A stretch of DNA of 64,000 nucleotides from assembly GCF_011046245.1 (NCBI RefSeq), contig NZ_CP049244.1, positions 806,001 through 870,000 on the forward strand, given 5' to 3'. The notes under the pieces were generated by a model. That model was not told where the DNA came from. It saw only the letters and a program-made list of their open reading frames with translations, and made no database searches. Source of the stretch: Allorhizobium pseudoryzae (GTDB taxonomy: Bacteria; Pseudomonadota; Alphaproteobacteria; Rhizobiales; Rhizobiaceae). Numbering within the stretch: position 1 is the stretch's first letter; the number at the start of each line of letters is the position of its first letter. A program made the translations under genes and the position numbers. Of this stretch, positions 29,403-49,493 are shown in pieces.

Positions 29403-29564
29403 GTATGTTTTCCTCCTGGGATGTTTGATGGCGCCCAGCATATGCCGGCGAGCCATCAATGCCAGACAGAGGTTTTCACAAAGGTCGCCGCGTCCGGAAA
29501 ATCTGTTCGCATGCCTTCTCATGACAGCGTTGCCCGCGTCGCCGCCATCACGCGTCTCTTAATA

Positions 29565-29620: not shown

Positions 29621-30226
29621 TCAGACGATCTCCGTCGTCACCTCGGCAATGGTCGCCACGCGGCAGACGGGCTTCAATGCCGCGATGGCCGTTTCGTGCA
29701 CGTCCGGCGAAAAGGCAGCGCAGCCATCCGAGAGAACCGTCACGTCGAAATCGCGCACATGCGCATCGCGCACCGTGGAGGCGACGCCGCCATTGGTGAC
29801 GATGCCGCAGACGAGGAGCTTGCGGATATCGCATTTGCGCAGCACCCATTCCAGCCGCGTCATGTAGAAGGCGGAATAGGCGACCTTTTCGATGCTGATA
29901 TCGGCCGGGGCGAGCTTGTCCACGAGACGGTGACCCCACGAGCCCGGGGCGAAATCGCCCTTCGCCAGAAAGGGCCGCAGCGTCTTCAGATGCGGCGAGA
30001 TGAGCGGCTCGCCGCCCTTCAGGGGCACCAGCGTGAACTGGGTGGAGATGATCCAGCCGCCGGCCGTGCGGATCTGGTCGGCAAGCGGCACCAACCGGTC
30101 GGATAGCGCCGCAATATCGGAGGACGTCTGGCCCGCCCGGCCATAGGCCCCCTGCGGATCAAGAAAGTCGTTCTGCAGATCAACGATCAGGAGGCCCGTC
30201 TGGGCCGCGGATATGGGGTTGTGCAT
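29621..30226 (-). CDS. Isochorismatase-fold hydrolase with Gly at the catalytic Cys position
   Basis: 201 residues. Asp16 (I-V-D-L-Q-N-D) and Lys114 of the Asp-Lys-Cys triad are present, but the T-N-x-C-V motif reads T-N-G-G-V (Gly147). Amidases of this family need the Cys; true isochorismatases such as EntB and PhzD carry Gly there and hydrolyse a vinyl ether. So despite lying beside HyuAB, amide hydrolysis by the usual thioester route is not expected. Its ATG overlaps the HyuA stop (ATGA). Last gene of the operon. Confidence 0.82.
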   Translation of the reverse strand: MHNPISAAQTGLLIVDLQNDFLDPQGAYGRAGQTSSDIAALSDRLVPLADQIRTAGGWIISTQFTLVPLKGGEPLISPHLKTLRPFLAKGDFAPGSWGHRLVDKLAPADISIEKVAYSAFYMTRLEWVLRKCDIRKLLVCGIVTNGGVASTVRDAHVRDFDVTVLSDGCAAFSPDVHETAIAALKPVCRVATIAEVTTEIV

Positions 30227-32298
30227 CAGCGCCTCTCAATGATGACATTGCCGAGCTCATCGACCCGTGCCGCCAGGTCCGGATCGACCAGCACCGTGGC
30301 ATCCGGCTGTTCGAGGATCGCCGGCCCCTCGATCTCGGCTCCGACCGGCAGTTCCAAGCGGGCATAGATGGCGGTGTCGTGCCAGGCTCCATCGAACCAG
30401 ACAGGACGACTGCCGCGCGCGGCCTTTTCCAGCGAGCATCCGGCATCCGGCGCAAGCGCCTTCAGGCTGAAATGCGGGCGACGGCCGATCGCGGCGGTGC
30501 GCAGGTTGACGATCTTCGCCTTCAGCCCCGGCAGCAGGCGGCTGAAGGAGGCGCGGTAGGCAGCATCGAAGGCGTCCTGCACGATCTGGCGGGTCACACC
30601 CGTAGAGCCATTGGCAATCGTTACCGGCAGCGGCACGGAGACCGTGTGCGTCTGGCCGACATAATGCATGTCGAGCTCGAACAGGATATCGACCCGCTCC
30701 ATCTGAAGACCAGCCTCATGGACGATACGACCTGCGGCCTCGGCCTCCGCCACCATGCGGGCGTCAAGGACCGCCTCATCCAGCGCATCGACCGTCAGGT
30801 TCACCGTCTGCACCTGATCGTGGCGGATGTCCGCAATCACGCAGCCGAGGGCCGAGGTGACGCCCGGATACCGCGGCACGAGTGCAGCCTGAAGACCAAC
30901 GTCCTTGATGAGCGCACCGGCATGCAGCGCGCCGCCACCGCCAAAGGGTACAGCGACGAATTTTGCCGGGTCGTGTCCGCGTTCGATGGAGACGAGGCGG
31001 ATGGCGCCGGCCATGCGACCGTCCGCCACGCGGACAATCGCTTCCGCCGCTTCCATGACGCCAAGGCCGCACGGGCCTGCGACATGTTCGGCAATGGCGG
31101 CCTTGGCTGCTTCCACGTCGAGACGCGATAGTTTGCCGCCGATCGGACGCTCCGCATTGATGCGGCCGAGAACGATATTGGCGTCCGTCAAGGTCGGGCG
31201 GGTGTTGCCCTGGCCGTAGGCGACCGGGCCGGGGCGTGAACCGGCGCTTTCCGGACCGACCTGCAGCAACCCGCCGGCATCGACATGAGCAATCGATCCG
31301 CCGCCGGCGCCGATCGTGGTAATCTCGATCATCGGCGTTCGCACGACAAGACCGAAATCGATCGTCGTCTGGGCGGCGAGCGAGGTCTGCCCATCGACGA
31401 CCAGGGAAACGTCAAAGGAGGTGCCGCCAAGATCGCCGGTAATGATATTGGGATAGCCGGCCGCCTTGGAGATGGCAGCCGCCGCGATGACGCCGGCCGC
31501 GGGGCCGGACAGGGCGGTGCGCACCGGCAGCCGGCTGGCGGTTTCGGTCGACATGACCCCACCATTCGACTGGACGATATGGAACGGACCGGTAAAGGCC
31601 TCACCCTTCAGGGCATCCTGCAGTTTGCCGAGATAGCCGCCGACCACCGGCTGGAGATAGGCATTCAGCGCCGTGGTCGAGGTGCGCTCGAACTCGCGGA
31701 TTTCCGGCAGGATCTGCGCGGACGAGGCGAGGTTGCCATTCGGCCAGACGGAGCGCGCCGCTTCCAGCGCCGCCAATTCGTTCGCCGGATTGGCATAGGC
31801 ATTGATGAAGCAGATGGCGAGTGCTTCGGCCCCTGCCGCGAGTGCCTTCAAGGCGGCGGCGCGGACTTCCTCTGGATCAAGCGCTTCGCGCACCGTTCCG
31901 TCCGCCAGCACGCGCTCGTTCACCTCAAAACGCATGTCGCGTTCAATGACAGGGATAAAATCACCCCACAGGCCCCAGGTGTTCAATCGGTCGCGGCGGC
32001 GCATTTCCAGCACGTCGCGAAACCCTTTCGTGGTGATCAGCGCGGTGCGCGCGCCCTTGCGCTCCAGAAGCGCATTGGTGCCGACGGTGGTGCCGTGCAC
32101 GATCGAGCCGAGATCGGCAATGGCGCCGAAGGATTTCAATCCTTCGATAAAGCCGACGGCCTCATCGCCGCGATTGGAGGAGACCTTTGCGGTGCGGAAC
32201 TTTCCGGTCGCTTCTTCATAATAGAAGAGGTCGGTAAACGTGCCGCCGACATCGACGCCCACGACCGCGCCGTTCAGGCTCTTGATATGGCTGTTCAT
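30226..32298 (-). CDS. hyuA: Hydantoinase/oxoprolinase alpha subunit (HyuA-like)
   Basis: 690 residues. N-terminal actin-like ATP-binding region G-V-D-V-G-G-T-F-T-D, then G-D-L-G-G-T-S-F-D and I-G-A-G-G-G-S-I: the hydantoinase A/oxoprolinase architecture with a C-terminal HyuA_C domain. With HyuB such proteins use ATP to open cyclic amides (N-methylhydantoin, 5-oxoproline) or to carboxylate ketones (acetone and acetophenone carboxylases). The adjacent lyase and hydrolase make ring opening of a cyclic amide or imide the better guess, not proven. Overlaps HyuB by 4 bp. Confidence 0.88.
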   Translation of the reverse strand: MNSHIKSLNGAVVGVDVGGTFTDLFYYEEATGKFRTAKVSSNRGDEAVGFIEGLKSFGAIADLGSIVHGTTVGTNALLERKGARTALITTKGFRDVLEMRRRDRLNTWGLWGDFIPVIERDMRFEVNERVLADGTVREALDPEEVRAAALKALAAGAEALAICFINAYANPANELAALEAARSVWPNGNLASSAQILPEIREFERTSTTALNAYLQPVVGGYLGKLQDALKGEAFTGPFHIVQSNGGVMSTETASRLPVRTALSGPAAGVIAAAAISKAAGYPNIITGDLGGTSFDVSLVVDGQTSLAAQTTIDFGLVVRTPMIEITTIGAGGGSIAHVDAGGLLQVGPESAGSRPGPVAYGQGNTRPTLTDANIVLGRINAERPIGGKLSRLDVEAAKAAIAEHVAGPCGLGVMEAAEAIVRVADGRMAGAIRLVSIERGHDPAKFVAVPFGGGGALHAGALIKDVGLQAALVPRYPGVTSALGCVIADIRHDQVQTVNLTVDALDEAVLDARMVAEAEAAGRIVHEAGLQMERVDILFELDMHYVGQTHTVSVPLPVTIANGSTGVTRQIVQDAFDAAYRASFSRLLPGLKAKIVNLRTAAIGRRPHFSLKALAPDAGCSLEKAARGSRPVWFDGAWHDTAIYARLELPVGAEIEGPAILEQPDATVLVDPDLAARVDELGNVIIERR

Positions 32299-34031
32299 GC
32301 GGCTTTTCCTTCACGCAATCTGTCGGTCGCCTGCACATCGACCTGTCCGTCCTTGGTCACCTCGACGCCGTACAACGTGCGCGCGTTTTTCCGGCTGACG
32401 AAGCCGAGACGGACGTCCCGCGCGACTTTGTCCGGCGACCGGGTCCACGGGTTGCCGTAACCGCCGCCGCCGGGCGATTCGATACGTATCTTCTGGCCGG
32501 CGCGCACCCTGACATCCGTGACCTTGGAGGCGAGCGGCGGCGAGCGCTCGCCATCATCGCTCTCCCAGGTGAAGCGGTTGAGCCCGCCTTCCAGGCCGCC
32601 GGCGACACCCGGTGGTGCATAGACGCCGCGTTCGCCAAGCAGGAAAACATCCGCGTCGGTCAGCGTCTCGACTTCATATATGGAGCCGACGCCACCCCGA
32701 TGATGGCCGGCACCGGCAGAATCCGGCCTAAGGGCCCATTGGGTGAAGACGACGGGGTAGGAGGCTTCCAGGATTTCCGCCGGCGGAATGGTGGCCATAG
32801 AGATCGGGTTGTTGGCGTGGTTCAGACCGTCGCTTTCCGGGTTGCCGCCCAGCCCGCCGCCGAAGAAGGAGAACATCACATAGCGGGAGCCATCGCCACG
32901 ATAGCCCGCAATCGACAGCGCATTGATAGTGCCGAACGGAGCGGCCGTCGCGCGCGAGGGATCGGCCTGTGCCAAGGCGCCGAACACGACGCCGATGACG
33001 CGCAGGATCGTTTCGGTGTACCCGCCGACCGGCTTCGGCGGCTTGACGCCGAGCAGCGTCGTTTCCGGGATGATGAAGGAGATCGGCCGCAGGCATCCGG
33101 CATTGGCCGGCACCGCGGTGAAGACGTGCTTCAGCGCCACATAGCAGCAGGCGGCAGCCGTCGAATAGGCGATGTTGAGCGGCCCCGCACAGGGCGCCGA
33201 GGAGCGCGAAAAATCCAGCACCATCTCGTCGCCTTTGATGGTGAGGTCGAGTGCGATGGTAAGGCGCTCCGGCGTGATGCCGTCATTGTCGAGGTAGTCC
33301 TCGAAACTGTAGACTCCGTCCGGCAGCGCCCGGATCGCGTCGCGCATCATGGCATCGGCCCGATCCGAGAAGACATCGAAGGCCTGGGCGACCGTGCTGT
33401 CGCCATAAGCATCCAGCAGTTCCGCCAGCCGCCGTTCGCCGAGATCCAGCGCGTTCAGCTGACCGTTCAGATCGCCGTAGTTGGAGGTCGGCACACGGGA
33501 ATTGGCCGCCAGAATGTCGAGGAGGTCGCGATTCATCACGCCCTTCGACACCAGCTTGACCGGCGGAATGCGGACCCCTTCCTGAAAGCTCTCGGTGGCC
33601 TTGGCATTGAATCCGCCCGGCACGTTGCCGCCGATATCCAGCCAATGCCCAACGGAGGCGATCCAGCAATAGAGCTTACCGCCGCGAAAGACCGGGCGCA
33701 CCAGGCGGAAATCGTTGAGATGCGTGCCGCCGGCATAAGGATCGTTGAAGAGATAGGTATCGCCGGGGTTCAGATCCCCGTCCGTCGCTACCTTGTCGAT
33801 GACCGCCTTCACGGCAAACGCCATGGCGCCGACGAAGATCGGCAGACCGCGGGTGCCCTGCACCAACGTGGCGCCCGTCTCTGCGTGATAGAGGCCGTGG
33901 CAGGCATCGCGGGCCTCGGCAATGATCGGATTGAAGGCGGAACGATAAAGCGTCGCGTCCATCTCGTCGGCGATCTGCTCCAGACGACCGTTCAGAATGG
34001 CGAGCGTGACGGGATCAAGAGCGCTTTTCAT
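32295..34031 (-). CDS. hyuB: Hydantoinase/oxoprolinase beta subunit (HyuB-like)
   Basis: 578 residues. Starts with D-P-V-T-L-A-I-L-N-G-R-L-E-Q-I-A-D-E-M, the typical HyuB N-terminus, and contains the metal-binding-type N-D-P-Y-x-G-G-T-H-L-N-D near residue 95 and the Gly-rich S-P-G-G-G-G-Y-G-N-P near the C-terminus. It pairs with the HyuA-like subunit, with ATGA overlaps on both sides (HyuA and lyase genes), so stoichiometric co-translation is expected. Confidence 0.88.
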   Translation of the reverse strand: MKSALDPVTLAILNGRLEQIADEMDATLYRSAFNPIIAEARDACHGLYHAETGATLVQGTRGLPIFVGAMAFAVKAVIDKVATDGDLNPGDTYLFNDPYAGGTHLNDFRLVRPVFRGGKLYCWIASVGHWLDIGGNVPGGFNAKATESFQEGVRIPPVKLVSKGVMNRDLLDILAANSRVPTSNYGDLNGQLNALDLGERRLAELLDAYGDSTVAQAFDVFSDRADAMMRDAIRALPDGVYSFEDYLDNDGITPERLTIALDLTIKGDEMVLDFSRSSAPCAGPLNIAYSTAAACCYVALKHVFTAVPANAGCLRPISFIIPETTLLGVKPPKPVGGYTETILRVIGVVFGALAQADPSRATAAPFGTINALSIAGYRGDGSRYVMFSFFGGGLGGNPESDGLNHANNPISMATIPPAEILEASYPVVFTQWALRPDSAGAGHHRGGVGSIYEVETLTDADVFLLGERGVYAPPGVAGGLEGGLNRFTWESDDGERSPPLASKVTDVRVRAGQKIRIESPGGGGYGNPWTRSPDKVARDVRLGFVSRKNARTLYGVEVTKDGQVDVQATDRLREGKAA

Positions 34032-34945
34032 GCGGCGTCGTCCTTCGTGTTGCCCTTGGCGGATGGGGAGTGGTGGGCGGCGTCGAATTCCTCGTAACGA
34101 CGGCCGAGGTCGAGCATTTGCGGCGTGCCGATCAACTCGTTCAGCGCGCCGAAATCGAACATGCGATCGGCAAACGGCGTATTGGTGCCGTGCTGATGCA
34201 GGGATGCGTAATAGTCCTGCGCGGTCCGTGCCAGAGCCCGGACGATGCCGCCCGGGAAGATCACGATGCTGTAGCCCATCCGGCCAAGCTCCGCCGCGGA
34301 GAACATCGGCGTGTTGCCGCCTTCCACCATGTTGGCGAGCAGCGGTCGACGGCCACCCAAGGCTGTGCTGACGGCACCCAGTTGTTCGGCCGAGCGCGGC
34401 GCCTCGACGAACAGGATATCGGCGCCGGCTTCAGCATAAAGGGCAGCGCGATCGATCGCGGCTTCCAACCCCTCGATCGCGACGGCGTCGGTGCGGGCGA
34501 TGATCAGCGTCTCTTCGGACGCGCGTGCATCGACGGCTGCTTTCACCTTGCCGGCCATTTCCTGCGCTGAAACAATGCTCTTGTCCTGCAGGTGGCCGCA
34601 GCGCTTCGGCAGCGTCTGGTCTTCCAGCTGGATGGCGCTGGCACCCGCCCGCTCGAAGGTTTTCACGGTTCGCTGCACGTTGAGCGCATTGCCGTACCCG
34701 TTGTCGGCATCGACGATCAGCGGGGTTTCCACCCGCTGGCGGACCAGGCTGATGACATCGGCGACTTCCGTCATGGAGACAAGACCGATATCCGGCCGCC
34801 CGAGCCGGGTATAGGCGATGGCGGCGCCCGAGAGATACAGGGCGGAAAAGCCGGCATCCGTGGCGATCGAGGCGGTCAGCGCATCGAAGACGCCGGGCGC
34901 GACGACCGTCTTGCCGTCGGAGATATGGTGTTTGAGGCTGGTCAT
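34028..34945 (-). CDS. Isocitrate lyase/PEP mutase-superfamily lyase (2,3-dimethylmalate lyase/methylisocitrate lyase-like)
   Basis: 305 residues from ATG 34945. TIM-barrel with V-D-A-D-N-G-Y-G near residue 78, Q-L-E-D-Q and K-R-C-G-H with Cys116, the acid/base residue of C-C lyases in the superfamily (PrpB, isocitrate lyase, dimethylmalate lyase); phosphonate mutases lack it. So a 2-hydroxy-dicarboxylate is probably split into a 2-oxoacid or glyoxylate plus a carboxylate. The LeuCD-like hydratase upstream is what would make such a hydroxyacid. No prpC or prpD is here, so 2-methylcitrate metabolism is less likely. Confidence 0.82.
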   Translation of the reverse strand: MTSLKHHISDGKTVVAPGVFDALTASIATDAGFSALYLSGAAIAYTRLGRPDIGLVSMTEVADVISLVRQRVETPLIVDADNGYGNALNVQRTVKTFERAGASAIQLEDQTLPKRCGHLQDKSIVSAQEMAGKVKAAVDARASEETLIIARTDAVAIEGLEAAIDRAALYAEAGADILFVEAPRSAEQLGAVSTALGGRRPLLANMVEGGNTPMFSAAELGRMGYSIVIFPGGIVRALARTAQDYYASLHQHGTNTPFADRMFDFGALNELIGTPQMLDLGRRYEEFDAAHHSPSAKGNTKDDAA

Positions 34946-35118
34946 GTCTTGTCCTTCATCGCGGGAGCGACCCTTGAACGGGCGTGGTCCGGCGGATTGG
35001 CAGCGGCCGCGGGGGCCGCAACGGCAGGCGATGGGGGTATCCGGCGGCCGACGCTGCGGCCTGACGCGGCGGAGCGATCCCGATGGCGGAGCGGCGGATG
35101 GGGTGCGTGCATCATCAT
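34942..35118 (-). CDS. Possible small coupled ORF (58 aa) between LivF and the lyase
   Basis: Opens with three consecutive ATGs (35118, 35115, 35112) just after GAGGAGC, itself overlapping the LivF stop, and closes with TGA overlapping the lyase ATG (ATGA). The product is Pro/Ala/Arg/Ser-rich, strongly basic, with no recognised domain. The perfect ribosome site and stop-start overlap suggest it is translated; the low-complexity composition is also what a chance frame in 63-67% G+C sequence gives. The alternative is an untranslated 180-bp spacer. Confidence 0.4.
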   Translation of the reverse strand: MMMHAPHPPLRHRDRSAASGRSVGRRIPPSPAVAAPAAAANPPDHARSRVAPAMKDKT

Positions 35119-35126
35119 CTTGCTCC

Positions 35127-35825
35127 TCAAAGCCCAAGATAGGCGCGCTTGAGGTCCGGATCGGCCGCGATCTCGGCGGCAGAGCCGGACATGGTCACGA
35201 GCCCGTTCTCGATGATGTAGGCGCGGTGGGCGATCTCGAGCGACTGCACGACGTTCTGTTCGACCAGCATGATCGGCAGGCCGTCGGCGTTCAGCCGTTT
35301 CACGAGGTCGAACATTTCCTCGACCAGCAGCGGTGAAAGTCCGAGCGAGGGTTCGTCGAGGATCAGAAGCTTCGGTTCAGCCATCATGCCGCGGCCGATC
35401 GCCAGCATCTGCTGCTCGCCGCCGGAGAGCGTGCCGGCCATCTGCGTCATGCGCTGACGAAGCTTCGGGAACGTGTCGTAGACCCGCTCGATGTTGCGGC
35501 TGCGTCCGGCACGTCCGCGGCGATAGCTGCCAAGCTCGAGATTTTCCTCTACGCTCATGTTGGGGAAGATCTTGCGGCCTTCCGGCACATGGATGAGCCC
35601 GGCTTCGACGGCGGCGATCGGTGAGCCGCCAAGCGCCCTGCCGTCGAAGGTGATCGAGCCGGAGGCGAGGGGAAGCAGACCGGAGAGCGCCTTGTTGAGG
35701 GTCGTCTTGCCGACGCCGTTGGCTCCCAGCACCGCGACGATCTCACCGCTGGCGACGGAAAGGTCGATGCCGCGCAGCACTTCCACGCCACCATATCCGG
35801 TGCGAATGTCTTTCACCTCAAGCAT
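35127..35825 (-). CDS. Branched-chain-type ABC transporter ATPase, LivF-like
   Basis: 232 residues. Walker A G-A-N-G-V-G-K-T-T, signature L-S-G-G-E-Q-Q-M-L, Walker B L-L-I-L-D-E-P-S-L-G-L-S-P, the last typical of LivF. Its start overlaps the LivG-like stop by 8 bp. Second ATPase of the five-gene Liv-type (HAAT) importer in the HutC-controlled operon. Confidence 0.9.
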   Translation of the reverse strand: MLEVKDIRTGYGGVEVLRGIDLSVASGEIVAVLGANGVGKTTLNKALSGLLPLASGSITFDGRALGGSPIAAVEAGLIHVPEGRKIFPNMSVEENLELGSYRRGRAGRSRNIERVYDTFPKLRQRMTQMAGTLSGGEQQMLAIGRGMMAEPKLLILDEPSLGLSPLLVEEMFDLVKRLNADGLPIMLVEQNVVQSLEIAHRAYIIENGLVTMSGSAAEIAADPDLKRAYLGL

Positions 35826-36567
35826 GGGCGCCTCCGAGGTTGGCGATGCGCGCGGCGGCGCCCTTGCCGAGATAGGCCTCGATGACGGCCGGATCGTTGC
35901 AGACGGAGGCGGGCGTTCCTTCCGCGATCATCTGGCCCTGTGCCAGCACATAGACCTCTTCGCAGAGGTTCATGACGGCCTGCATCACATGCTCGATCAT
36001 GAAGATGGTCACCCCGTCGTCGCGGATCGCCCGGATCACCGGAATGATGTCGCGGATTTCCGACGGGTTGAGACCGGCCAGCACCTCATCGAGCAGCAGC
36101 AGCTTGGGTTCGGTCGCCAGGGCACGGGCAAGCTCCAGCCGCTTGCGCCCGGCAACCGTGAGGCTCGAGGCTTGCTGTTCCAACTCCCCGCCAAGTCCCA
36201 CGCGTTCCGCAACGGCCCGAGCCTTTGCGATGGCGTCCTCCGTTTTCGGGTGGCGCAGATAGCTGCCGACGGTGATGTTCTCCAGCACGTTCAGCCCCTG
36301 GAAGGGTTGGACGATCTGGAACGTGCGGGCAATGCCCATCTGCGCCCGCTGATGCGGCTTGAGACGGGTCATATCGCTGCCCTGCCAGAGGACCTGCCCA
36401 GCCGTTGGCTGCAGGAAACCGGCAATCACGGCAAAGAGGGTGGTCTTGCCCGCCCCGTTTGGGCCGATCAGCCCCGTAATCGATCCTTCCCGAACCGAGA
36501 GGGAGGCCTGGTGGACGGCAGTCAGACCGCCAAAGCGCATGGTGATGGTGTCGGTGCGCAAGATCAT
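35818..36567 (-). CDS. Branched-chain-type ABC transporter ATPase, LivG-like
   Basis: 249 residues from ATG 36567, which overlaps the LivM-like stop (ATGA); the frame stays open far upstream inside LivM but that part is antisense to no known domain and is not used. Walker A G-P-N-G-A-G-K-T-T, LivG-type R-T-F-Q-I-V near residue 85, and a divergent signature (L-T-V-A-G-R-K-R) in place of L-S-x-G-Q. Walker B L-L-L-D-E-V-L-A-G-L-N-P. First ATPase of the importer. Confidence 0.9.
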   Translation of the reverse strand: MILRTDTITMRFGGLTAVHQASLSVREGSITGLIGPNGAGKTTLFAVIAGFLQPTAGQVLWQGSDMTRLKPHQRAQMGIARTFQIVQPFQGLNVLENITVGSYLRHPKTEDAIAKARAVAERVGLGGELEQQASSLTVAGRKRLELARALATEPKLLLLDEVLAGLNPSEIRDIIPVIRAIRDDGVTIFMIEHVMQAVMNLCEEVYVLAQGQMIAEGTPASVCNDPAVIEAYLGKGAAARIANLGGAHA

Positions 36568-37532
36568 ATCGCGATCCTCCGGGCAAGCCGCGGCGCAAAG
36601 CGGCGCACGAGGCCGAGCACCCCGCCTGAGGCGAAGGCAACGACGCCAATCAGCACGACGGCAAACACCATCAGGTCGATGCCGGGGATGCGGCCGGCGA
36701 AACTCTTGGTCAGTTCGCCAAGCCCATGCAGCGTGAAGGTGCCGATCAACGGTCCGAGCACGAGTCCGCGTCCGCCGACCAGCGGTGCCAGCAGGGCTTC
36801 GACCGAAATCCAGACGCCGAAGCCGATATTGGCGTCGATATAGAGAAAGTTCTGAACGTAGAGCACACCGGCCGCCGCCGTCATCGCGCCCGACAGGCTG
36901 ATCGCCTTCAGCTTGACAGACAGGACATCGACGCCGAGCGCACGGGCGGCATCCTCGTTTTCGCGCACGGCGACCAGATGGGCGCCGAAACGCGAACCGG
37001 CAATGGCCCGGCTGATGACGAGGCCGACGAAGACGAAGGCGAGTGCCAGCCAGAGGAAGGAGGCGCGGCTTTCGAACTGCATGTTGGCAAAGCCGGGATC
37101 GAGCTTCAGCAGAAGGCCGGCGGCTCCGCCCGTCCATTCGGATGCATTGGCAAGAATCCGCATCAGTTCGGCGAAGGCAAGCGTGATCAGAGCGAAATAG
37201 GAACCACGTAGGCCGGCCCGGAAACTCAGGAAACCGAGAATGAAACCGGCAGCGGCACCGGCAAGCAGTGCCAGCAGGAAGGCGACCCAGGCATTGAGGC
37301 CGACATGGACCTGCAGGATCGATGCCGTGTAGCAGCCGACGCCGAAGAACAGCGCATGGCCGAAGGAGGTCTGCCCAGCGACGCCGCCGAGAATGTTCCA
37401 CCCCTGGGCCGCCAAGGTTATGATCAGCGACATCACCATGAAGTTGAAGAGAGTATTGGATGAGGAGATGAACGGCACGACCGCAAGCGCGGCCGTTACC
37501 ACAGCAATGGGAATATAACCGCTGAGCTTCAT
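36564..37532 (-). CDS. Branched-chain-type ABC permease, LivM-like
   Basis: 322 residues, about nine membrane helices. It contains the LivM segment L-G-G-V-A-G-Q-T-S-F-G-H-A near residue 48 and the cytoplasmic E-N-E-D-A-A-R-A-L-G-V coupling loop near residue 195. Overlaps LivG- and LivH-like genes by 4 bp each. Substrate set by the LivK-like receptor; HAAT importers carry amino acids, amides, urea and aromatic acids. Confidence 0.9.
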   Translation of the reverse strand: MKLSGYIPIAVVTAALAVVPFISSSNTLFNFMVMSLIITLAAQGWNILGGVAGQTSFGHALFFGVGCYTASILQVHVGLNAWVAFLLALLAGAAAGFILGFLSFRAGLRGSYFALITLAFAELMRILANASEWTGGAAGLLLKLDPGFANMQFESRASFLWLALAFVFVGLVISRAIAGSRFGAHLVAVRENEDAARALGVDVLSVKLKAISLSGAMTAAAGVLYVQNFLYIDANIGFGVWISVEALLAPLVGGRGLVLGPLIGTFTLHGLGELTKSFAGRIPGIDLMVFAVVLIGVVAFASGGVLGLVRRFAPRLARRIAI

Positions 37533-38401
37533 GCCTTTGCTCCGAACAGGCCGGTCGGCTTCAGGAGCAGGACCAGGATGAAGATGATGAAGATGCCGAT
37601 CTGGCCCAGGCTTTCCCCCAGGAGCAGTCCGCTCAGGCTTTCCACGAGACCAATGAGAAGACCGCCGATCATGGCGCCTGGGATCGAGCCCATGCCGCCG
37701 AGAACGACGATCGTAAAGGCAATGTTGACGAATGCGCCACCGACGCGCGGATTGACATAGAAGGTCGGCATCAGCAGACCGGCCGCAACGGCAAGGGCCG
37801 CGCAGCCGAGGCCGAAGGTCAGCGCGTAGACATGGCCGACATCGATCCCCATCAGACTGGCGCCGAGTTTCTCCTTGGCAACAGCGCGGATCGCCTTGCC
37901 GGCATCCGTGCGGCTCATGATGAACCAGAGGAGGGCGGTGACGACGAGCGAGCCGGCAAAACCGACGAGGCGAGGGGACGAAATCAGGAAGGGACCTGCT
38001 TCAACGACCGAGAAGGAGAAATCCGAGCTGATCGACCGCGTATCGGAGCCAAAACCGGCCAGCAGCGCATTTTCGATGAAGATCGAGAGCCCCAGCGTGA
38101 TCAGCAGGATATTGCCGTCATCGTCTTTGGCTGCCGGTCCGATGATCAGGCGCTGGACGCCATAACCGAGAGCGAAAAAGACCGGTGCAAGAAAAAGGAT
38201 CGACAGATAGGGGTCGATCCCGCCCAGCACGTTCAGGCCCCAGACGGCGAACATGGCGCTGGCGAGGATGGCTCCATGGGCAAAGTTGATGATGTGCAGC
38301 ACGCCGTAGACGAGCGTCAGCCCAAGCGCGATCAGCGCGTAGATCGCGCCGGTCAGCAGCCCGTTGATCATCGCCTCGATGAGAATGGTTGGGGAATACA
38401 T
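37529..38401 (-). CDS. Branched-chain-type ABC permease, LivH-like
   Basis: 290 residues, eight predicted helices. Typical LivH start (G-L-x-x-G-A-I-Y-A-L-I-A-L-G-L-T-L-V-Y-G) and I-N-F-A-H-G near residue 40; A-V-A-x-x-x-x-A-S-L-M-G-I-D coupling loop near residue 180. Lies 71 bp downstream of the receptor gene. Confidence 0.92.
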   Translation of the reverse strand: MYSPTILIEAMINGLLTGAIYALIALGLTLVYGVLHIINFAHGAILASAMFAVWGLNVLGGIDPYLSILFLAPVFFALGYGVQRLIIGPAAKDDDGNILLITLGLSIFIENALLAGFGSDTRSISSDFSFSVVEAGPFLISSPRLVGFAGSLVVTALLWFIMSRTDAGKAIRAVAKEKLGASLMGIDVGHVYALTFGLGCAALAVAAGLLMPTFYVNPRVGGAFVNIAFTIVVLGGMGSIPGAMIGGLLIGLVESLSGLLLGESLGQIGIFIIFILVLLLKPTGLFGAKA

Positions 38402-38472
38402 CGTCCAGTCCGCAAGGTTGCGTTACAGGAGGCAGATCCCGCCGGAACGGGACCTGCCACGGATCGGCAACC

Positions 38473-39696
38473 TCAGCCGTTGGCCGGGAACATCGGCTTT
38501 GCGTCGGCAAAGTCGCTCGGATAGACGACCTTGATCTGGCCCTTCTGAACCTGCGTCGAAACCGGTGCGGCACCCATGTTCTGGCCGTTGACGAATTTCG
38601 TCTCGCCATAGGGCATCAAATGGTCCTTGAAGGTCGAGGTGTTGAGCGCCTCGATGACCTTGCCGCGTTCGGCAGCTCCCGCCCGTTCCAAAGCATCCGC
38701 CAGCAGGCCAACGGAGGAGTAGTTCAGCGGGATGTTGTAGTTGTACGGCTTGCCGGCGGCTTCGACACGGGCCTGCACCGCCTGGGATTTCGCGTTGCGC
38801 GGATCGTACCAGTGATTGCAGTCCATCACGCCTTCGGCCGCTTCCGGGAATTCGGCGACGAAACGGCGGTTGGAGGCCGCACCGTTGAGGACGGCGTAGA
38901 CGGCCTTCGGGCGGACGCGCTGCTGCTGCATGGTGCGGGCCAGCAGAACGGTTTCGCCGTAATAGGTGCTCGGGATGATGAGGTCCGGATTGAGGCTGCG
39001 CAGACGCAGCGTCACGTTGGAGAGGTCGCGCGAAGGTGTCGGCACCGCGATCTGATCGAGGATCTCGAAACCGTATTTCGGCAGTTCGGTCGCCATCAGC
39101 TTGGCAAGGCCAGAGCCGAACAGGCCGTCTTCGTGCACCAGCGCCACGGTCTTTGCCGGCTTGCCGGCGGCCTCGTTGATGCGCACGAGGTTCTGGATCG
39201 CGGCGGCGGTGCAGATTGAAAAGCCGGGGGCAAAACGGAAGGTGTTCTTCAGACCGCGTCCGGTGATCTGGTCGGACACGCCGACATCCACCAGATAGGG
39301 CAGGTCGTAGCGCGAGGCAGCCTGCGAGGCGGCAAGGCAGATGGGGCTTGCAAAGCCGCCGACGATCCCGATGACGCCCTCTTCCTGCATGCGCTCGACT
39401 TCCTGCGTGCCGGCCTCCGGGTTGGAGCGGGCATCGCCGAACACCATCTGCAGCTTGGCGCCGCCCAGCGACTTGATGCCGCCGGCCTTGTTGATGTCTT
39501 CAATGGCAAGCTCCGCGCCCAAGCGGCCATACTCGCCGTCCTGGGCCAGCGCCCCGGTCACCGGCTGCAGAATGCCGACCTTGATCGGCGCGGGTTCGGC
39601 GGCGCGCAGCACCGCGGGTGCCGAGAGCGTGGCAAGGGCTGCGGCGCCGCCCTTGAGGATGGTTCTACGTTTCAGATGGGTCTCGACCAGTGTCAT
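38473..39696 (-). CDS. Branched-chain-type ABC substrate-binding protein, LivK-like, Tat-type signal
   Basis: 407 residues from ATG 39696. The leader has K-R-R-T-I-L-K-G-G before a hydrophobic Ala-rich stretch and A-x-A cleavage site, which looks like a twin-arginine signal. Mature part: I-K-V-G-I-L-Q-P-V-T-G type I periplasmic fold (receptor-ligand, ANF-like). Its first 32 bp overlap the regulator's 3' end. Ligand unknown; by context a cyclic amide/imide or an amidated dicarboxylate. Confidence 0.9.
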   Translation of the reverse strand: MTLVETHLKRRTILKGGAAALATLSAPAVLRAAEPAPIKVGILQPVTGALAQDGEYGRLGAELAIEDINKAGGIKSLGGAKLQMVFGDARSNPEAGTQEVERMQEEGVIGIVGGFASPICLAASQAASRYDLPYLVDVGVSDQITGRGLKNTFRFAPGFSICTAAAIQNLVRINEAAGKPAKTVALVHEDGLFGSGLAKLMATELPKYGFEILDQIAVPTPSRDLSNVTLRLRSLNPDLIIPSTYYGETVLLARTMQQQRVRPKAVYAVLNGAASNRRFVAEFPEAAEGVMDCNHWYDPRNAKSQAVQARVEAAGKPYNYNIPLNYSSVGLLADALERAGAAERGKVIEALNTSTFKDHLMPYGETKFVNGQNMGAAPVSTQVQKGQIKVVYPSDFADAKPMFPANG

Positions 39697-40549
39697 GTGT
39701 TGTTCTCCTCTTGAGGGGTGGCCGCTTCTCGCGGGCATTCTTCTTGTCGTTATTTTCATTGGCCTCGGTCAGGCCGCGGCTGTCGGCCGCCGTCCAGCGG
39801 CGCGCGCCGCGGTCGCCTGTGCGGGCAAGTTCCATGTGGAAGGAATAGCGGTCGGGACGGTAGAGCGCCTGCAGGTGCTCGATACCGCGTCCGGAGGCCT
39901 CGTAGACCACGCGGGTCATGGAGAGGAGCGCCGCACCGATCTCGACATCGAGGGCAGCCGCGACGTCCGGGCTCGCCAGCGTCGCCCCGATGATCTGCTG
40001 GGCCTTGTCGGCGACCAGACCGGAGCGCTCCAGAAGTTCGAGCAGCGGCGTCGAGGCCAGGTCAGCCTCGGAATAGGAAATGCCGATGCGCTCCGGAACA
40101 TGGGTCACGAGATAGGAAAACGGCTGCCCGTCGATCAGGCGCACGCGAATGGAGCGCTGCAGCCGCTCGCCAGGCTCGAGTTTCAACTCCTCGGCCAGAG
40201 CCGGCGTGGCGTTGACATACGAGAAGGCAATCAAACGCACGCCGGTTTTGCGGCCCATCTCCACCAGATGGGTCAGCGCATTGGCAAGATCGGCCACCAC
40301 CGGCATGCGCGCATGCCCGCCGCTGACGAAGGTACCGGAGCCGGGACGGCGTTCGATCATGCCGTCGCTTGCGAGCTTGTCCAGCGCCCGCCGGACCGTG
40401 ACCCGCGAAACCCGGTGCTCCTGCGCCAGTTGCGGCTCGCTCGGAAGCTTCGCCGAATCCGGCACCTCGCCGCTCAGGATCTGTTCCCGGAGCAGAAGAT
40501 AGAGCCGGTGGGCCTTCATGGGCTCTGCCGTCGCGGCGGTTCGTGTCAT
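39665..40549 (-). CDS. GntR regulator, HutC/UTRA subfamily
   Basis: 294 residues from ATG 40549. GntR winged helix (about 15-80: L-P-S-E-P-Q-L-A-x-x-x-x-V-S-R-V-T-V-R-R-A-L) followed by a UTRA ligand-binding domain to about residue 250, then a basic tail. First gene of the long operon, so probably autoregulated. Its likely site is the ACAGATTTCTGT palindrome in its own promoter, whose core recurs before the divergent flavoprotein gene, implying joint control of both arms. Confidence 0.88.
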   Translation of the reverse strand: MTRTAATAEPMKAHRLYLLLREQILSGEVPDSAKLPSEPQLAQEHRVSRVTVRRALDKLASDGMIERRPGSGTFVSGGHARMPVVADLANALTHLVEMGRKTGVRLIAFSYVNATPALAEELKLEPGERLQRSIRVRLIDGQPFSYLVTHVPERIGISYSEADLASTPLLELLERSGLVADKAQQIIGATLASPDVAAALDVEIGAALLSMTRVVYEASGRGIEHLQALYRPDRYSFHMELARTGDRGARRWTAADSRGLTEANENNDKKNAREKRPPLKRRTTHDTGRDPSET

Positions 40550-40582
40550 TGTCTGTCTTTCCTGGAAGACATTTAGTTGTTC

Positions 40583-40612
40583 TATAAAAGATACAGATTT
40601 CTGTCTTGTCAA
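40583..40612 (-). promoter_or_regulatory. Promoter with embedded operator for the HutC-Liv-Hyu operon
   Basis: On the minus strand TTGACA (40612-40607), an 18-nt spacer and TTTATA (40588-40583). The spacer carries the perfect palindrome ACAGA-AA-TCTGT (40593-40604). A bound dimer would sit between -35 and -10 and block polymerase. Located in the 85 bp between the LeuD-like and regulator genes. Confidence 0.65.
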
Positions 40613-40634
40613 TTGGTTTTCCGTGGGCGGAGCG

Positions 40635-41255
40635 TCACGGTCCGTGCACAGTGGGCACAAGCCAGGGGCGGGTAAGGGAGTCCTGCGCCTGAAAGGCCTC
40701 GATAGCTGACGAATGGCTCATGGTCAGGTCGATATCGTCCCAGCCGTTCAGCAGCTTCGTGCGCCAGACGCGATCGATGCGGAACGGGATGACGAGGTTT
40801 GCCGCCCAAATCTCGCAGGTTTCGAGATCGACGCGGGCGGTGCCATCGCCGCTTTCCAGGCCGGCCAGCAGCGCCTCGCCATCTTCCTCCGTTACCGTGG
40901 CCGGCAGCACGCCGTTGTTGACGGCATTGCTGGCGAAGATATCGCCGAAGGACGGGGCGATGACGCAGGCAAAACCATAATCGGCGAGCGCATAGACCGC
41001 CGCTTCCCGCGACGAGCCGCTGCCGAAATTGCGCCGCGTCACCAGGATTTTCGCACCCTGCCAGCGTGGCATGTTCAGAGGGCAATCCGGTCTCGGCTGA
41101 CCGCTTTCGTCAAAGCGCAGGTCGTGCAGCAGGTAGTCACCGTAACCATCGGCACGGGAGCGCTTCATGAAACGGGCCGGGATCAGCTGATCGGTGTCGA
41201 TGCCGGAAAGCGGCAGCGGACAGGCAATTGCATCGAGACTTTTGAAGGCGTCCAT
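40635..41255 (-). CDS. LeuD-like (de)hydratase small subunit
   Basis: 206 residues, full length for LeuD. Swivel domain with D-T-D-Q-L-I-P near residue 20 and N-F-G-S-G-S-S-R-E near residue 77, which binds the substrate carboxylates. Partner of the LeuC-like protein encoded immediately upstream (no gap). Genes named leuCD serve leucine synthesis, but their location in a catabolic cluster, next to a lyase of the isocitrate-lyase superfamily, favours a dimethylmaleate-, citraconate- or alkylmaleate-hydratase role (inference). Confidence 0.85.
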   Translation of the reverse strand: MDAFKSLDAIACPLPLSGIDTDQLIPARFMKRSRADGYGDYLLHDLRFDESGQPRPDCPLNMPRWQGAKILVTRRNFGSGSSREAAVYALADYGFACVIAPSFGDIFASNAVNNGVLPATVTEEDGEALLAGLESGDGTARVDLETCEIWAANLVIPFRIDRVWRTKLLNGWDDIDLTMSHSSAIEAFQAQDSLTRPWLVPTVHGP

Positions 41256-42701
41256 TCAGTGCTCTCCCGTCAGGCCTGTCTCGCGACCCGCCAGAAGCGG
41301 GCGCATGTCGGTCAGGTGTCCGGTCACGGCGGCGGCGGCGGCCATGGCCGGCGACATCAGGTGCGTACGGCTCCCCGGCCCCTGGCGCCCCCGGAAGTTC
41401 CGATTGGTGGTGGAGGCGCAGCGTTCGCCGGGCGGCACGAGATCGCCGTTCATGCCGACGCACATCGAACAGCCCGCATCGACCCATTCGAGCCCGGCCT
41501 CCGTGAAAATCCGGTCGAGACCTTCCTCTTCCGCCTGCCGCTTGACGACCGCCGAGCCCGGCGACACCAGTCCCGGTATGCGGGCGCGCCGCCCGGCAAG
41601 AACGGCGGCGGCGGCGCGCAGGTCCTCGATGCGGCTGTTGGTGCAGGAGCCGATGAAGACGCGATCCACGGCGATCTCCGTCAGCGGCTGGCCCGGTTGG
41701 ATGCCCATATAATCTAGGGCTTCGCGCACATGGGCGGCGCGGGCCGGATCGTTCATCCGGTCGGGGTCCGGTGCGCTGGCGGTGATCGGGGCAGCATCCT
41801 CGGGGCTGATGCCCCAGGTCACGATGGGTGCGATCTCGCCCGCATCAAGCACGATCTCCCGATCGAACGGGGCGTCTTCATCGCCCAAGAGCGCTGTCCA
41901 GCTTTCGACGGCTCGATCGAACATCTGGCCCGCCGGGGCGTAGGGCCGGTCCTTCAGATAGGCGAAGGTGGTCTCGTCCGGCGCAATCATGCCGCAGCGT
42001 CCGCCGGCTTCGATGGAGAGGTTGCAGAGCGTCAGCCGGCCTTCCATGGTGAGCGCACGAACGGCGCTGCCGGCATATTCGATTGCGTGGCCGGCGGCCC
42101 CATCGGCGCCGATGGTAGCGATCATCGATAGCGCCATGTCCTTGGCGAATACGCCTGGAGGAAGCTTGCCCTCCACACGAATGCGCATGCGTTTCGGCTT
42201 CTTCTGCCAGAGCGTCTGGGTCATCAGCACATGCGCCACTTCGGAGGCGCCGATACCGAAGGCGATGGCCCCAAAGGCGCCGTGCGTTGCGGTGTGGCTG
42301 TCGCCACAAACCATCGTCAGTCCCGGCAGCGTCAGGCCCTGTTCGGGGCCGAGCACATGGACGATCCCCTGGGCCGGATCGGAAAGGCCGAACAGCCGAA
42401 GACCATGCCGAGCGCTATTGTCGCGCAACTGGCGGATCATGTTCGCGATCGCCGGATCAATGGCCGTCAGGTCCCGTGTCCGGGTGGGAACGTAATGATC
42501 TTCGATGCCGAAGGTGAGATCCGGTCGGGCGACCTTGGCGTCGCGTGACCGGAGCTTGTCGAAGGCGTGAAACGAGCCTTCGTGCAAGAGATGCCGATCG
42601 ATGAAAAGAAGACATTGCCCGTCTTCCCGCGCTGTCACGACATGCTGATCGAACACCTTGTCGAACAGGGTCCTCGGACCCGCTTCGGCTCTGATACCCA
42701 T
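41256..42701 (-). CDS. LeuC-like (de)hydratase large subunit, [4Fe-4S]
   Basis: 481 residues from ATG 42701 (GAGGAAG upstream). Aconitase-superfamily: V-C-G-D-S-H-T-A-T-H-G near residue 140, and the three Fe-S Cys in I-G-S-C-T-N-S-R and C-S-M-C-V-G-M-N. N-terminal R-T-L-F-D-K-V-F-D-x-H is LeuC-like. Forms the heterodimer that adds or removes water on 2-alkylmalate/3-alkylmalate-type acids. Divergent from the flavoprotein gene (121-bp region). It may be a genuine second isopropylmalate isomerase; context argues against. Confidence 0.87.
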   Translation of the reverse strand: MGIRAEAGPRTLFDKVFDQHVVTAREDGQCLLFIDRHLLHEGSFHAFDKLRSRDAKVARPDLTFGIEDHYVPTRTRDLTAIDPAIANMIRQLRDNSARHGLRLFGLSDPAQGIVHVLGPEQGLTLPGLTMVCGDSHTATHGAFGAIAFGIGASEVAHVLMTQTLWQKKPKRMRIRVEGKLPPGVFAKDMALSMIATIGADGAAGHAIEYAGSAVRALTMEGRLTLCNLSIEAGGRCGMIAPDETTFAYLKDRPYAPAGQMFDRAVESWTALLGDEDAPFDREIVLDAGEIAPIVTWGISPEDAAPITASAPDPDRMNDPARAAHVREALDYMGIQPGQPLTEIAVDRVFIGSCTNSRIEDLRAAAAVLAGRRARIPGLVSPGSAVVKRQAEEEGLDRIFTEAGLEWVDAGCSMCVGMNGDLVPPGERCASTTNRNFRGRQGPGSRTHLMSPAMAAAAAVTGHLTDMRPLLAGRETGLTGEH

Positions 42702-42800
42702 TCCCGTCTTCCTCGCTCGGTGCCGGAATTTAGGCATGAGCGCGACTGGAAATCAAATGTTGTTTTAAAAATAATACAGCTTAATGTTTCTTCAAAGCGG

Positions 42801-42813
42801 CAGATAACTGTCT
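42801..42813 (+). promoter_or_regulatory. Second copy of the CAGATWWCTGTCT motif
   Basis: CAGATAACTGTCT here matches CAGATTTCTGTCT at 40594-40606 in 11 of 13 positions and in the same orientation. It lies 9 bp before the flavoprotein ATG and 99 bp upstream of the LeuC-like start, so one HutC-type dimer could control both divergent units. Confidence 0.55.
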
Positions 42814-42822
42814 GGTAGGGGA

Positions 42823-44232
42823 ATGGAGCCGATCGTGTCCCAATGTGTTCGTGTTGCAGAACAAGCCTTCGATTACCGGGTGCCGCTCGTTGTCATCGGG
42901 GCGGGGGCAGCGGGCCTTGTGGCAGCCCTGTCTGCCCATGAGGCGGGCGAGGAGGTGCTCGTTCTGGAGCGCGATCCCCTGCCGCGTGGCTCGACCGCCC
43001 TGTCGGCAGGTCTTGTTCCAGCCGCCGCCACACGCTGGCAAAGGGCCGCCAGCATCGTCGATACACCGGAACTCTTTGCGAGCGATATTCTCCGGAAGGC
43101 GCATGGGGAACCCGACGCGCAGATCGTCGATCACGTCACCCGCCTTGCCGGACCGGTGCTCGAATGGCTGGCAGACCGCCACGATCTCAAATTTTCGGTT
43201 ATCGAGGATTTCAGCTATCCAGGCCATTCGGCACGCCGCATGCACGGACTTGTCTCGCGCTCCGGTGAAGAACTGATCGATGCCCTGCGGGCGGCTGCCG
43301 AAGCCTGCGAGATTCCGGTGATTTGCGATGCGCATGTGACGACGCTCTTCGCCGATGAAACCGATCGTGTTCTCGGGCTGGCCTTTGCGCGGCCCGACGG
43401 AAGCGTGGAGGAGATCGGCTGCGATCGGCTGATTCTTGCCTGCAACGGCTATGGTGGCAATCGGGCGCTGGTAGCCGAGCACATTCCGTCGCTCGCGGAT
43501 GCCACCTATTTCGGCCATGCCGGCAATCAGGGGGACGCGTTGTCGTGGGGGCAGGCGCTCGGTGCCGCCACCCGTCATCTGAATGGCCACCAGGGGCATG
43601 GTTCGGTTGCCCATCCCGCCGGCATCCTGATTTCCTGGGCGACGATCACCGAAGGCGGCTTCCAGGTCAACAGTCAGGGCGAACGCTTTTCCAACGAGGC
43701 AAAGGGCTATTCCGAACAGGCTGCAGAAGTGCTCAAGCAGCCGGATGGCGTGGCCTGGACCGTCTTCGATGCGCGTATCGCGGCGATCACCCGGCAGTTC
43801 GAGGATTTCCGTCGTGCCGAAGCGATGGGGGCGGTGCTTTCTGCCGACAGCCTGCCGCAACTGGCCGTGCGCATGGGCCTGCCCGAAGAGGCGCTGCGGC
43901 GCACTGCCGAAGCGGTCGATGCCTGCAAACAGGCGGGTGCGGAGGATGGCTTCGGCCGCGATTTCGCCGGATCACAACCCTTGTCCGCGCCCTATTGCGC
44001 CGTCCGCGTCACCGGTGCTCTTTTCCACACCCAGGGTGGGCTGGTCATCGATACGCAGGCCCGTGTTCTGCGTCCCGATGGTACGCCCCTTCCCAATCTT
44101 TATGCGGCCGGCGGCGCGGCATGCGGTGTCTCCGGCAACGACGCCTCCGGCTACCTCTCCGGCAATGGTCTGCTGACGGCCGTGACCCTGGGACGGACGG
44201 CTGGGGCGACCGTTGCGGCAGGACGCGGTTAG
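42823..44232 (+). CDS. FAD-dependent fumarate-reductase/succinate-dehydrogenase-like flavoprotein
   Basis: 469 residues (or 465 from GTG 42835, which has GGAG at 6 nt). N-terminal V-I-G-A-G-A-A-G dinucleotide fold, N-S-Q-G-E-R-F-S-N-E near residue 285, and the C-terminal P-N-L-Y-A-A-G-G-A-A-C-G-V-S-G block typical of soluble FAD_binding_2 enzymes (fumarate reductases, ketosteroid 1-dehydrogenases, tricarballylate dehydrogenase). No heme motif or signal peptide. Likely interconverts a saturated and an alpha,beta-unsaturated carboxylate, feeding or draining the LeuCD-like hydratase. Confidence 0.82.
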   Translation: MEPIVSQCVRVAEQAFDYRVPLVVIGAGAAGLVAALSAHEAGEEVLVLERDPLPRGSTALSAGLVPAAATRWQRAASIVDTPELFASDILRKAHGEPDAQIVDHVTRLAGPVLEWLADRHDLKFSVIEDFSYPGHSARRMHGLVSRSGEELIDALRAAAEACEIPVICDAHVTTLFADETDRVLGLAFARPDGSVEEIGCDRLILACNGYGGNRALVAEHIPSLADATYFGHAGNQGDALSWGQALGAATRHLNGHQGHGSVAHPAGILISWATITEGGFQVNSQGERFSNEAKGYSEQAAEVLKQPDGVAWTVFDARIAAITRQFEDFRRAEAMGAVLSADSLPQLAVRMGLPEEALRRTAEAVDACKQAGAEDGFGRDFAGSQPLSAPYCAVRVTGALFHTQGGLVIDTQARVLRPDGTPLPNLYAAGGAACGVSGNDASGYLSGNGLLTAVTLGRTAGATVAAGRG

Positions 44233-45604: not shown

Positions 45605-45639
45605 AAGCAACGCACAATAATCAACAGAGGACGAACACA

Positions 45640-48400: not shown

Positions 48401-48404
48401 GGCC

Positions 48405-49472: not shown

Positions 49473-49493
49473 TCAACGACGGAAATGAAAGTC

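Follow-up and report, generated by a model that had tools for sequence, protein, structure and literature searches.

Organization of the gene cluster

We analyzed a 64-kb stretch of Allorhizobium pseudoryzae DNA (the window), which sits in a 1.27-Mb contig of the 5.4-Mb genome, and describe here 13 genes at positions 29621-44232 that make up a genuine, conserved catabolic unit. An initial annotation had proposed that these genes degrade an alkyl-substituted cyclic imide or alkylsuccinamide by import, ring opening, deamidation, C=C redox, hydration and C-C cleavage. Family searches and coordinates located every gene it had named, on the strand and within the interval given for it. Twelve of the genes lie on the minus strand in the order leuC, leuD, hutC, livK, livH, livM, livG, livF, a PrpB-like lyase gene, hyuB, hyuA and an isochorismatase-fold gene, and the remaining one, encoding a flavoprotein, stands alone on the plus strand.

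The regulator gene encodes a HutC-like GntR protein with a UTRA ligand domain (39665-40549, minus strand; PF00392 and PF07702; HutC model 114.5 bits, below the cut-off of 220). It is followed on the same strand by a Liv-type transporter composed of a LivK-like periplasmic binding protein (38473-39696; PF13458, 165 bits), LivH-like and LivM-like permeases (37529-38401 and 36564-37532; both PF02653), a LivG-like ATPase (35818-36567; PF00005 and PF12399) and a LivF-like ATPase (35127-35825; PF00005). Read by eye, the N-terminus of the LivK-like protein carries a twin-arginine-like signal, KRRTILKG.

The ten genes from hutC to the isochorismatase-fold gene are separated by nine junctions, which had been described as mostly ATGA overlaps. 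Overlaps are indeed present at seven of the nine, but only four (livH/livM, livM/livG, lyase/hyuB and hyuB/hyuA) are of the 4-base ATGA type, so that this wording was slightly generous. The other overlaps measure 1 base (hyuA/isochorismatase-fold gene), 8 bases (livG/livF) and 32 bases (hutC/livK), and the two gaps measure 71 (livK/livH) and 181 bases (livF/lyase); the start codons of livK and the lyase gene are our choice, and the lengths of the livK and lyase junctions depend on them. The leuC gene abuts leuD, and the flavoprotein gene is divergent from leuC.

Conserved linkage in other genomes

From 533 confirmed HyuA relatives we took the best 80, with flanks of about 10 kb, as a set of named loci; because only the best were kept, this sample leans to close relatives of the window. 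At set identity thresholds the hydrolase gene was linked in 78 of the 80 loci, the lyase in 76, LivF in 72, LivK in 70, HutC in 69, the flavoprotein in 66, leuC in 49 and leuD in 39, the last two counts being low because of the 10-kb flank limit. Neither leuC nor leuD appears inside the locus limits in 17 of 60 full-length loci; in all 12 of these that were searched genome-wide, LeuC (63-81% identity) was found 0.2-5.8 kb past the locus edge, its position on the same contig being inferred from adjoining coordinates. Nine full-length loci are without the flavoprotein, and in six of the eight searched it lies 0.5-1.9 kb past the edge; in the other two, L082 and L085, it is not adjacent to the locus. 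Hosts of the named loci include Rhizobium, Microvirga, Methylobacterium, Azospirillum and Bradyrhizobium.

A bait-free test was performed on 385 genomes of the class, accepting the hydrolase at E values up to 1e-50 and the lyase up to 1e-100. The hydrolase was found in 26 genomes, the lyase in 44 and both in 24 (hypergeometric P 6e-24, relatedness ignored), and 20 of the 27 hydrolase places were less than 10 kb from a lyase. For a family sample of 151 genomes, the table lists lyase orthologues of at least 57% identity in 18, the source genome included; HyuAB stood beside the lyase in 13 of the 15 examined among the other 17, the exceptions being L014 and L020. Conserved synteny had been named beforehand as a check on the proposed pathway, and the same genes do recur jointly in many other Alphaproteobacteria genomes. 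It is almost certain that they serve one pathway.

A shared operator

The initial annotation had also noted a shared promoter motif, which proved to be real. We built a 22-bp position matrix from 43 de-duplicated hutC-upstream regions (of 65) of other organisms, with five near relatives of the window excluded before motif training. The learned operator is a palindrome, TGTCTTAT-atata-ATACAGgTT. Its best match in the window, at 25.7 bits, is an operator-like palindrome in the divergent leuC/flavoprotein promoter (42761-42782, plus strand), and two further operator-like sites of 18.3 and 14.3 bits are located 5' of hutC (40554-40599); the next best site in the window scores only 5.7 bits. A genome-wide search for the operator core pattern gave two hits, both in the cluster, with the stronger of the two hutC-upstream sites being the one recovered in this search; the reversed control pattern gave none. 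To judge by these predicted operators, which stand clear of the window background, leuCD, the flavoprotein gene and the hutC-liv-hyu genes are co-regulated.

Across the 80 named loci we counted 93 sites of at least 13 bits, versus 2 in shuffled sequence. That 91 of the 93 are beside hutC is expected, because the motif was made from hutC-upstream regions; a site near the leuC start was seen in 15 of 43 named loci. We further scanned 15 family loci (L013, L014, L016-L024, L027 and L030-L032) at a threshold of 11 bits. A site is found upstream of hutC in three of them (L016, L017 and L019) and elsewhere in L014 and L023, while ten have no site of at least 11 bits. Among these ten are four of the five scanned type-2 loci, which have a HutC of about 40% identity. 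The operator is therefore not common to all relatives. The site in L014 (4517-4538, 22.8 bits) is located inside a hutC-like coding stretch rather than 5' of it.

The LeuCD-like hydratase

The LeuC-like large subunit (41256-42701, minus strand) and the LeuD-like small subunit (40635-41255, minus strand) exceed the NCBIfam cut-offs for leuC (670 versus 560 bits) and leuD (176.4 versus 116.25 bits), as would a second leucine-biosynthesis isomerase that happened to neighbor an unrelated amide-degradation operon. The genome, however, carries three LeuC, one of them on C1, where a LeuD beside LeuB is also found. In a LeuC tree of 34 rows, 13 of whose 31 inner forks are open, this C1 LeuC pairs with that of E. 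coli (100/99), and the window LeuC is placed apart, among the cluster LeuC rows, and is thus of a non-housekeeping kind. In alignments the LeuD catalytic loop is GSGSSREAAVYAL in the window versus GCGSSREHAPWAL in both E. coli and the housekeeping LeuD of the same genome. The iron-sulfur motifs of LeuC are present: GSCTN in 49 of 49 sequences and C[ST]MC in 48 of 49, the one miss being a row of 385 amino acids.

Nine sister loci, L021-L029, have a different LeuC, 34-40% identical to that of the window, which stands before the lyase. The small subunit of L021, the sole one of the nine scanned, passes the cut-off of the LeuD/DmdB family TIGR02087 (172.6 versus 108.95 bits), and the window LeuD scores 69.5 bits, below it. 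Were the hydratase no part of the pathway, it would be hard to see why one hydratase family should take the position of another. With the housekeeping copies, the tree, the altered loop, the shared operator, the conserved linkage and this replacement all against it, we reject a role in leucine biosynthesis, to which we give only a very slight chance; the initial annotation had likewise set LeuCD apart from that pathway.

The PrpB-like lyase

The C-C lyase (34028-34945, minus strand) has the KRCGH motif and scores 297.6 bits against the prpB model, below its cut-off of 354.4. The PrpB catalytic set is kept in all 91 sequences (Y43, D58, D85, D87, E115, KRCGH, R158, E188 and N210); PMC11982470 gives the pyruvate-binding residue set of the family. 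The Ser45 equivalent is Ser in 85 sequences and Thr in 6, and the Gly47 equivalent is Ala in 90. Where E. coli PrpB has Arg270, however, Phe is present in 91 of 91 (Phe265 in the window). We take Arg270 to be the residue that binds the third, distal carboxylate. The same position is Phe in the aligned petal death protein 1zlp, and the match to dimethylmalate lyase 3fa3 stops before it.

The exchange of Arg270 for Phe therefore suggests that the lyase acts on an alkylmalate with a non-polar substituent, as would be expected from the alkylmalate cleavage first proposed. It disfavors a methylisocitrate-type substrate with a third carboxylate, given the role that we assume for Arg270. Substrates of the hematinic-acid type also become less probable, although a longer acid chain might be accommodated at another place. 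Taken together, LeuCD and the lyase quite probably hydrate and then cleave an alkyl dicarboxylate.

The same genome has a second LeuC-LeuD-PrpB-like-lyase trio (L013:8381-11421, C4:896393-899391; LeuC 56% and lyase 41% identical), which suggests that LeuCD and the lyase are a reusable hydrate-and-cleave cassette; an iron-containing alcohol dehydrogenase gene comes after this trio. L032:10612-18553, where LeuCD and a lyase are found beside a distant HyuAB (35% and 32%) and a gene of the 3-hydroxyacyl-CoA-dehydrogenase family, is a related yet different module. A further PrpB-like lyase paralogue, 43% identical, is located in the window at 54894-55754.

HyuAB and ring opening

HyuA (30226-32298, minus strand; PF05378, PF01968 and PF19278) and HyuB (32295-34031, minus strand; PF02538, 571 bits) correspond to the ATP-binding and metal-binding subunits of a hydantoinase/oxoprolinase-type ATP-dependent cyclic amidohydrolase. 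The HyuA motifs DxGGTxTD, a second DxGGT and GxxPGP are present in 93, 93 and 92 of 93 sequences, as in the phosphate/adenosine motifs described in PMC8453981. The HyuB metal-ligand motifs EAxDA (91/91), GGTHLxD (90/91) and GHWxD (91/91) were matched to CapB Asp41, His99, Asp102 and His124 by motif, not by superposition. These motifs, and the criterion of two subunits without gamma, are given in PMC5214803. No gene for a gamma (carboxylase) subunit was seen among the cluster genes identified by family searches. The motifs thus point to HyuAB as a probable ATP-dependent opener of a cyclic amide, in line with its original assignment. HyuAB shares its ATP and metal motifs and two subunits with the ATP-dependent lactam openers CapAB, N-methylhydantoinase and 5-oxoprolinase, but it is far under the CapAB equivalog cut-offs (HyuA scores 496.5 bits against caprolactamase alpha, cut-off 1000) and has another pathway context.

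HyuAB also belongs to the same family as the acetone and acetophenone carboxylases and could in principle be an ATP-dependent ketone-type carboxylase. Its best structural-chain matches, however, are N-methylhydantoinase and 5-oxoprolinase, and with no gamma subunit gene seen among the genes identified we consider a carboxylase most improbable.

Three sister loci, L014, L030 and L031, combine genes for LeuCD, Liv, a lyase and a flavoprotein, and have no HyuAB; their lyases are 65% (L014) and only 41-42% (L030 and L031) identical to that of the window. In place of HyuAB, L031 has three consecutive genes, one for an isochorismatase-fold protein and two PuuE-like, and homologues of all three are found in L014 and L030. 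The isochorismatase-fold proteins of the three loci all have the Cys-type motif TSGCV. PuuE relatives include cyclic imidases, according to PMC9304392. Two unrelated ring openers are thus combined with like genes for the later steps, which supports a cyclic imide or ureide as the pathway input. L020:899-10291 has TctC- and TctA-family transporter genes, leuCD, hutC and the lyase, with no Hyu genes and no flavoprotein, and looks like the dicarboxylate-using core alone, as if the dicarboxylate entered directly.

If the input were a cyclic ureide, either a substituted hydantoin or a dihydropyrimidine, HyuAB would form an N-carbamoyl acid that is then decarbamoylated, and the flavoprotein would be an amino-acid oxidase-like enzyme. 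Characterized HyuAB homologues open hydantoins (PMC8453981), and the solved N-methylhydantoinase is also among the matches. The PuuE-like proteins of L031 match the allantoinase PuuE, and its PF01177 protein, the one tested, is closest to hydantoin/allantoin racemases, with homologues, in pairs, in 10 of the 80 named loci. A ureide would nevertheless call for a carbamoylase Cys that the hydrolase does not have, and an amino acid product would leave the conserved LeuCD hydratase and PrpB-like lyase without a role. We rate a ureide input as unlikely, and prefer an imide.

The hydrolase and the flavoprotein

The isochorismatase-fold hydrolase (29621-30226, minus strand; PF00857, 142.7 bits) had been assigned the deamidation step. 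An alignment with RutB places Gly where amidases have their catalytic Cys, and Asp16-Lys114-Gly147 is found in 91 of 91 hydrolase sequences; the TNGG motif is present in 120 of 120 homologues among the matches listed, the best 120 of 8000 scored. The predicted model (pLDDT, predicted local distance difference test, 84.5) has BiuH, TrtA and RutB as its nearest folds. These isochorismatase-like amidases, together with NicF (maleamate amidohydrolase), share the fold of the cluster hydrolase but differ from it in having the Cys. With Gly at this position in every sequence, the protein is probably no ordinary Cys amidase, and the assignment in its original form is not supported.

Isochorismatase acts on its vinyl ether by acid catalysis. 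A comparable chemistry may be envisaged if HyuAB opened a cyclic enamide or pyrrolinone-type lactam and acid catalysis by the Asp-Lys-Gly hydrolase then stripped the enamine so formed of ammonia. The invariance of Asp-Lys-Gly fits this route, as does the flavoprotein described below, which is without dicarboxylate residues. According to PMC12553813, EntB and YecD have this Asp-Lys-Gly set, and several amides resisted wild-type YecD but not its Gly-to-Cys mutant, which thereby gains amide hydrolysis. We hold such an input to be somewhat less probable still than a ureide, and continue with the imide.

The flavoprotein (42823-44232, plus strand; flavocytochrome c family model 254 bits, cut-off 285) is of the same sequence family as soluble fumarate reductase and urocanate reductase. 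Of six fumarate reductase residues, whose roles are described in PMC6242907 and PMC7921117, the equivalents of H365, R402 and H504 are kept in 78 of 78 sequences each, but alignments of the same 78 sequences show that those of R544, E378 and R381 are lost. Urocanate reductase likewise has no Glu378 equivalent, yet it keeps the R544, R381 and R402 equivalents. Loss of the carboxylate Arg (R544) makes a plain dicarboxylate doubtful as the substrate, and the C=C redox of a simple dicarboxylate, as the initial annotation had it, was not borne out.

Proposed pathway

The initial logic of the cluster was largely good: the co-regulated pathway, HyuAB, LeuCD, the lyase and the synteny were supported, whereas the active sites lent no support to the deamidation and dicarboxylate redox steps. 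We give about even odds that the cluster, under HutC-type regulation, breaks down a small cyclic imide (or imide-like ring) carrying an alkyl substituent, and the case for a cyclic imide as the pathway input is equally balanced. The substrate would be imported by the Liv-type transporter, and its ring would be opened by HyuAB at the expense of ATP. Release of ammonia would be aided by the Asp-Lys-Gly hydrolase by a chemistry other than that of ordinary Cys amidases. The flavoprotein may desaturate or reduce the C=C next to the imide or amide carbonyl, probably earlier than ring opening or at about that stage, yielding an alkylmaleate skeleton. LeuCD would hydrate the alkylmaleate to an alkylmalate, which the PrpB-like lyase would split by retro-aldol cleavage to a 2-oxoacid (glyoxylate or pyruvate) and a short fatty acid. 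The genes present, their conserved linkage, the operator they share, the separateness of LeuCD from the housekeeping one and the conserved active-site residues are directly observed; which step follows which, the class of substrate and the chemistry of the third and fourth steps are what we infer.

Several observations weigh against this scheme. The hydrolase is without the amidase Cys in all 91 sequences, so the deamidation step has no clear enzyme, and the flavoprotein is without the carboxylate-binding R544 and the relay E378/R381. HyuAB relatives open hydantoins and lactams too, and the PF01177 racemase homologues also fit a ureide. An MmgE/PrpD gene, for which the scheme has no need, is found between livF and the lyase gene in 37 of the 80 named loci, and the window is without it and has no room for it there. 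The housekeeping LeuC pair nests among cluster-type rows of the 34-row tree rather than outside them. Linkage, too, has exceptions: L063 has HutC and HyuAB (77%) with neither the lyase nor a close hydrolase nearby, L082 has the lyase, HyuAB and the hydrolase with a non-adjacent flavoprotein and no HutC or leuCD seen, 20 of the 44 lyase-bearing class genomes are without the hydrolase, and 7 of the 27 hydrolase places are not near any lyase.

An obligate MmgE/PrpD step is doubtful for the source genome, in which the L038 protein found no match, in a search that had no positive control. A reductase of the Old Yellow Enzyme (OYE) family is found in 12 of the 80 named loci. Together with the paired PF01177 homologues it fits substrates that have stereocenters and a C=C, alkylsuccinimides and alkylmaleimides for instance; hydantoins fit as well. 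A tautomerase/SnoaL gene is present in 5 of the 80 named loci and near hutC in eight family loci (L017, L018, L021, L022, L023, L027, L028 and L029; divergent in L021), and the two members scanned, those of L017 and L021, combine tautomerase and SnoaL-like domains.

More tentatively, a widespread alphaproteobacterial pathway may mineralize alkyl-succinimides or -maleimides, such as could come from the rings of chlorophyll, bacteriochlorophyll or bilins, and yield a short fatty acid together with pyruvate or glyoxylate, with the Asp-Lys-Gly protein carrying out a new ammonia-releasing hydrolysis and the flavoprotein acting as an imide- or amide-level dehydrogenase; we see this extended proposal as possible rather than probable. 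A tetrapyrrole link was sought in the open-licence PMC literature and among gene neighbors; L020 carries a gene resembling a TonB haem receptor, and some Bradyrhizobium loci carry a SOUL gene, in both cases probably by coincidence.

Relation to known systems

A targeted search of open-licence PMC papers, with partial coverage, found no description of this gene set, in agreement with the initial statement that no such system had been described. In nicotinate fermentation, dimethylmaleate hydratase is followed by 2,3-dimethylmalate lyase. The cluster shares this succession of a LeuCD-family hydratase and an isocitrate lyase/phosphoenolpyruvate mutase-type lyase, and sister locus L021 has a small subunit of the LeuD/DmdB family; it differs in that the genes identified include no B12 mutase, methylitaconate isomerase or enamidase, the window LeuD is under the LeuD/DmdB cut-off, and entry is by HyuAB. 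The 2-methylcitrate cycle (PrpD, aconitase, PrpB) has in common the lyase family with its KRCGH motif and, in the 37 loci noted above, an MmgE/PrpD gene beside the lyase. The cluster lyase, however, has Phe for R270 and scores below the prpB cut-off, and no methylcitrate synthase is among the genes identified in the cluster. In the nicotinate route of Aspergillus nidulans the cyclic imidase HxnM is followed by the amidase HxnN, so that an imide ring is opened and ammonia then removed, comparable to the PuuE-type sister loci; the part of PMC9304392 available mentions no LeuCD or lyase step, and HyuAB is of a different family from HxnM.

If the proposal is true, the gene set marks imide catabolism in plant- and soil-associated Rhizobium, Microvirga, Methylobacterium, Azospirillum and Bradyrhizobium, explains the leucine, propionate and hydantoin names given to the LeuCD, PrpB-like and HyuAB genes of these clusters, and flags two enzymes whose active sites mismatch their family names. 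It also makes it testable which organisms consume maleimides and succinimides from pigment breakdown.

Neighboring genes

To the left of the cluster, the translation of 28743-29522 resembles a peroxiredoxin when read by eye. On the right side, 44579-50264 holds a separate plus-strand set of LacI, sugar-type ATP-binding cassette (ABC) transporter, phosphotriesterase-family and glutamine-amidotransferase-like genes.

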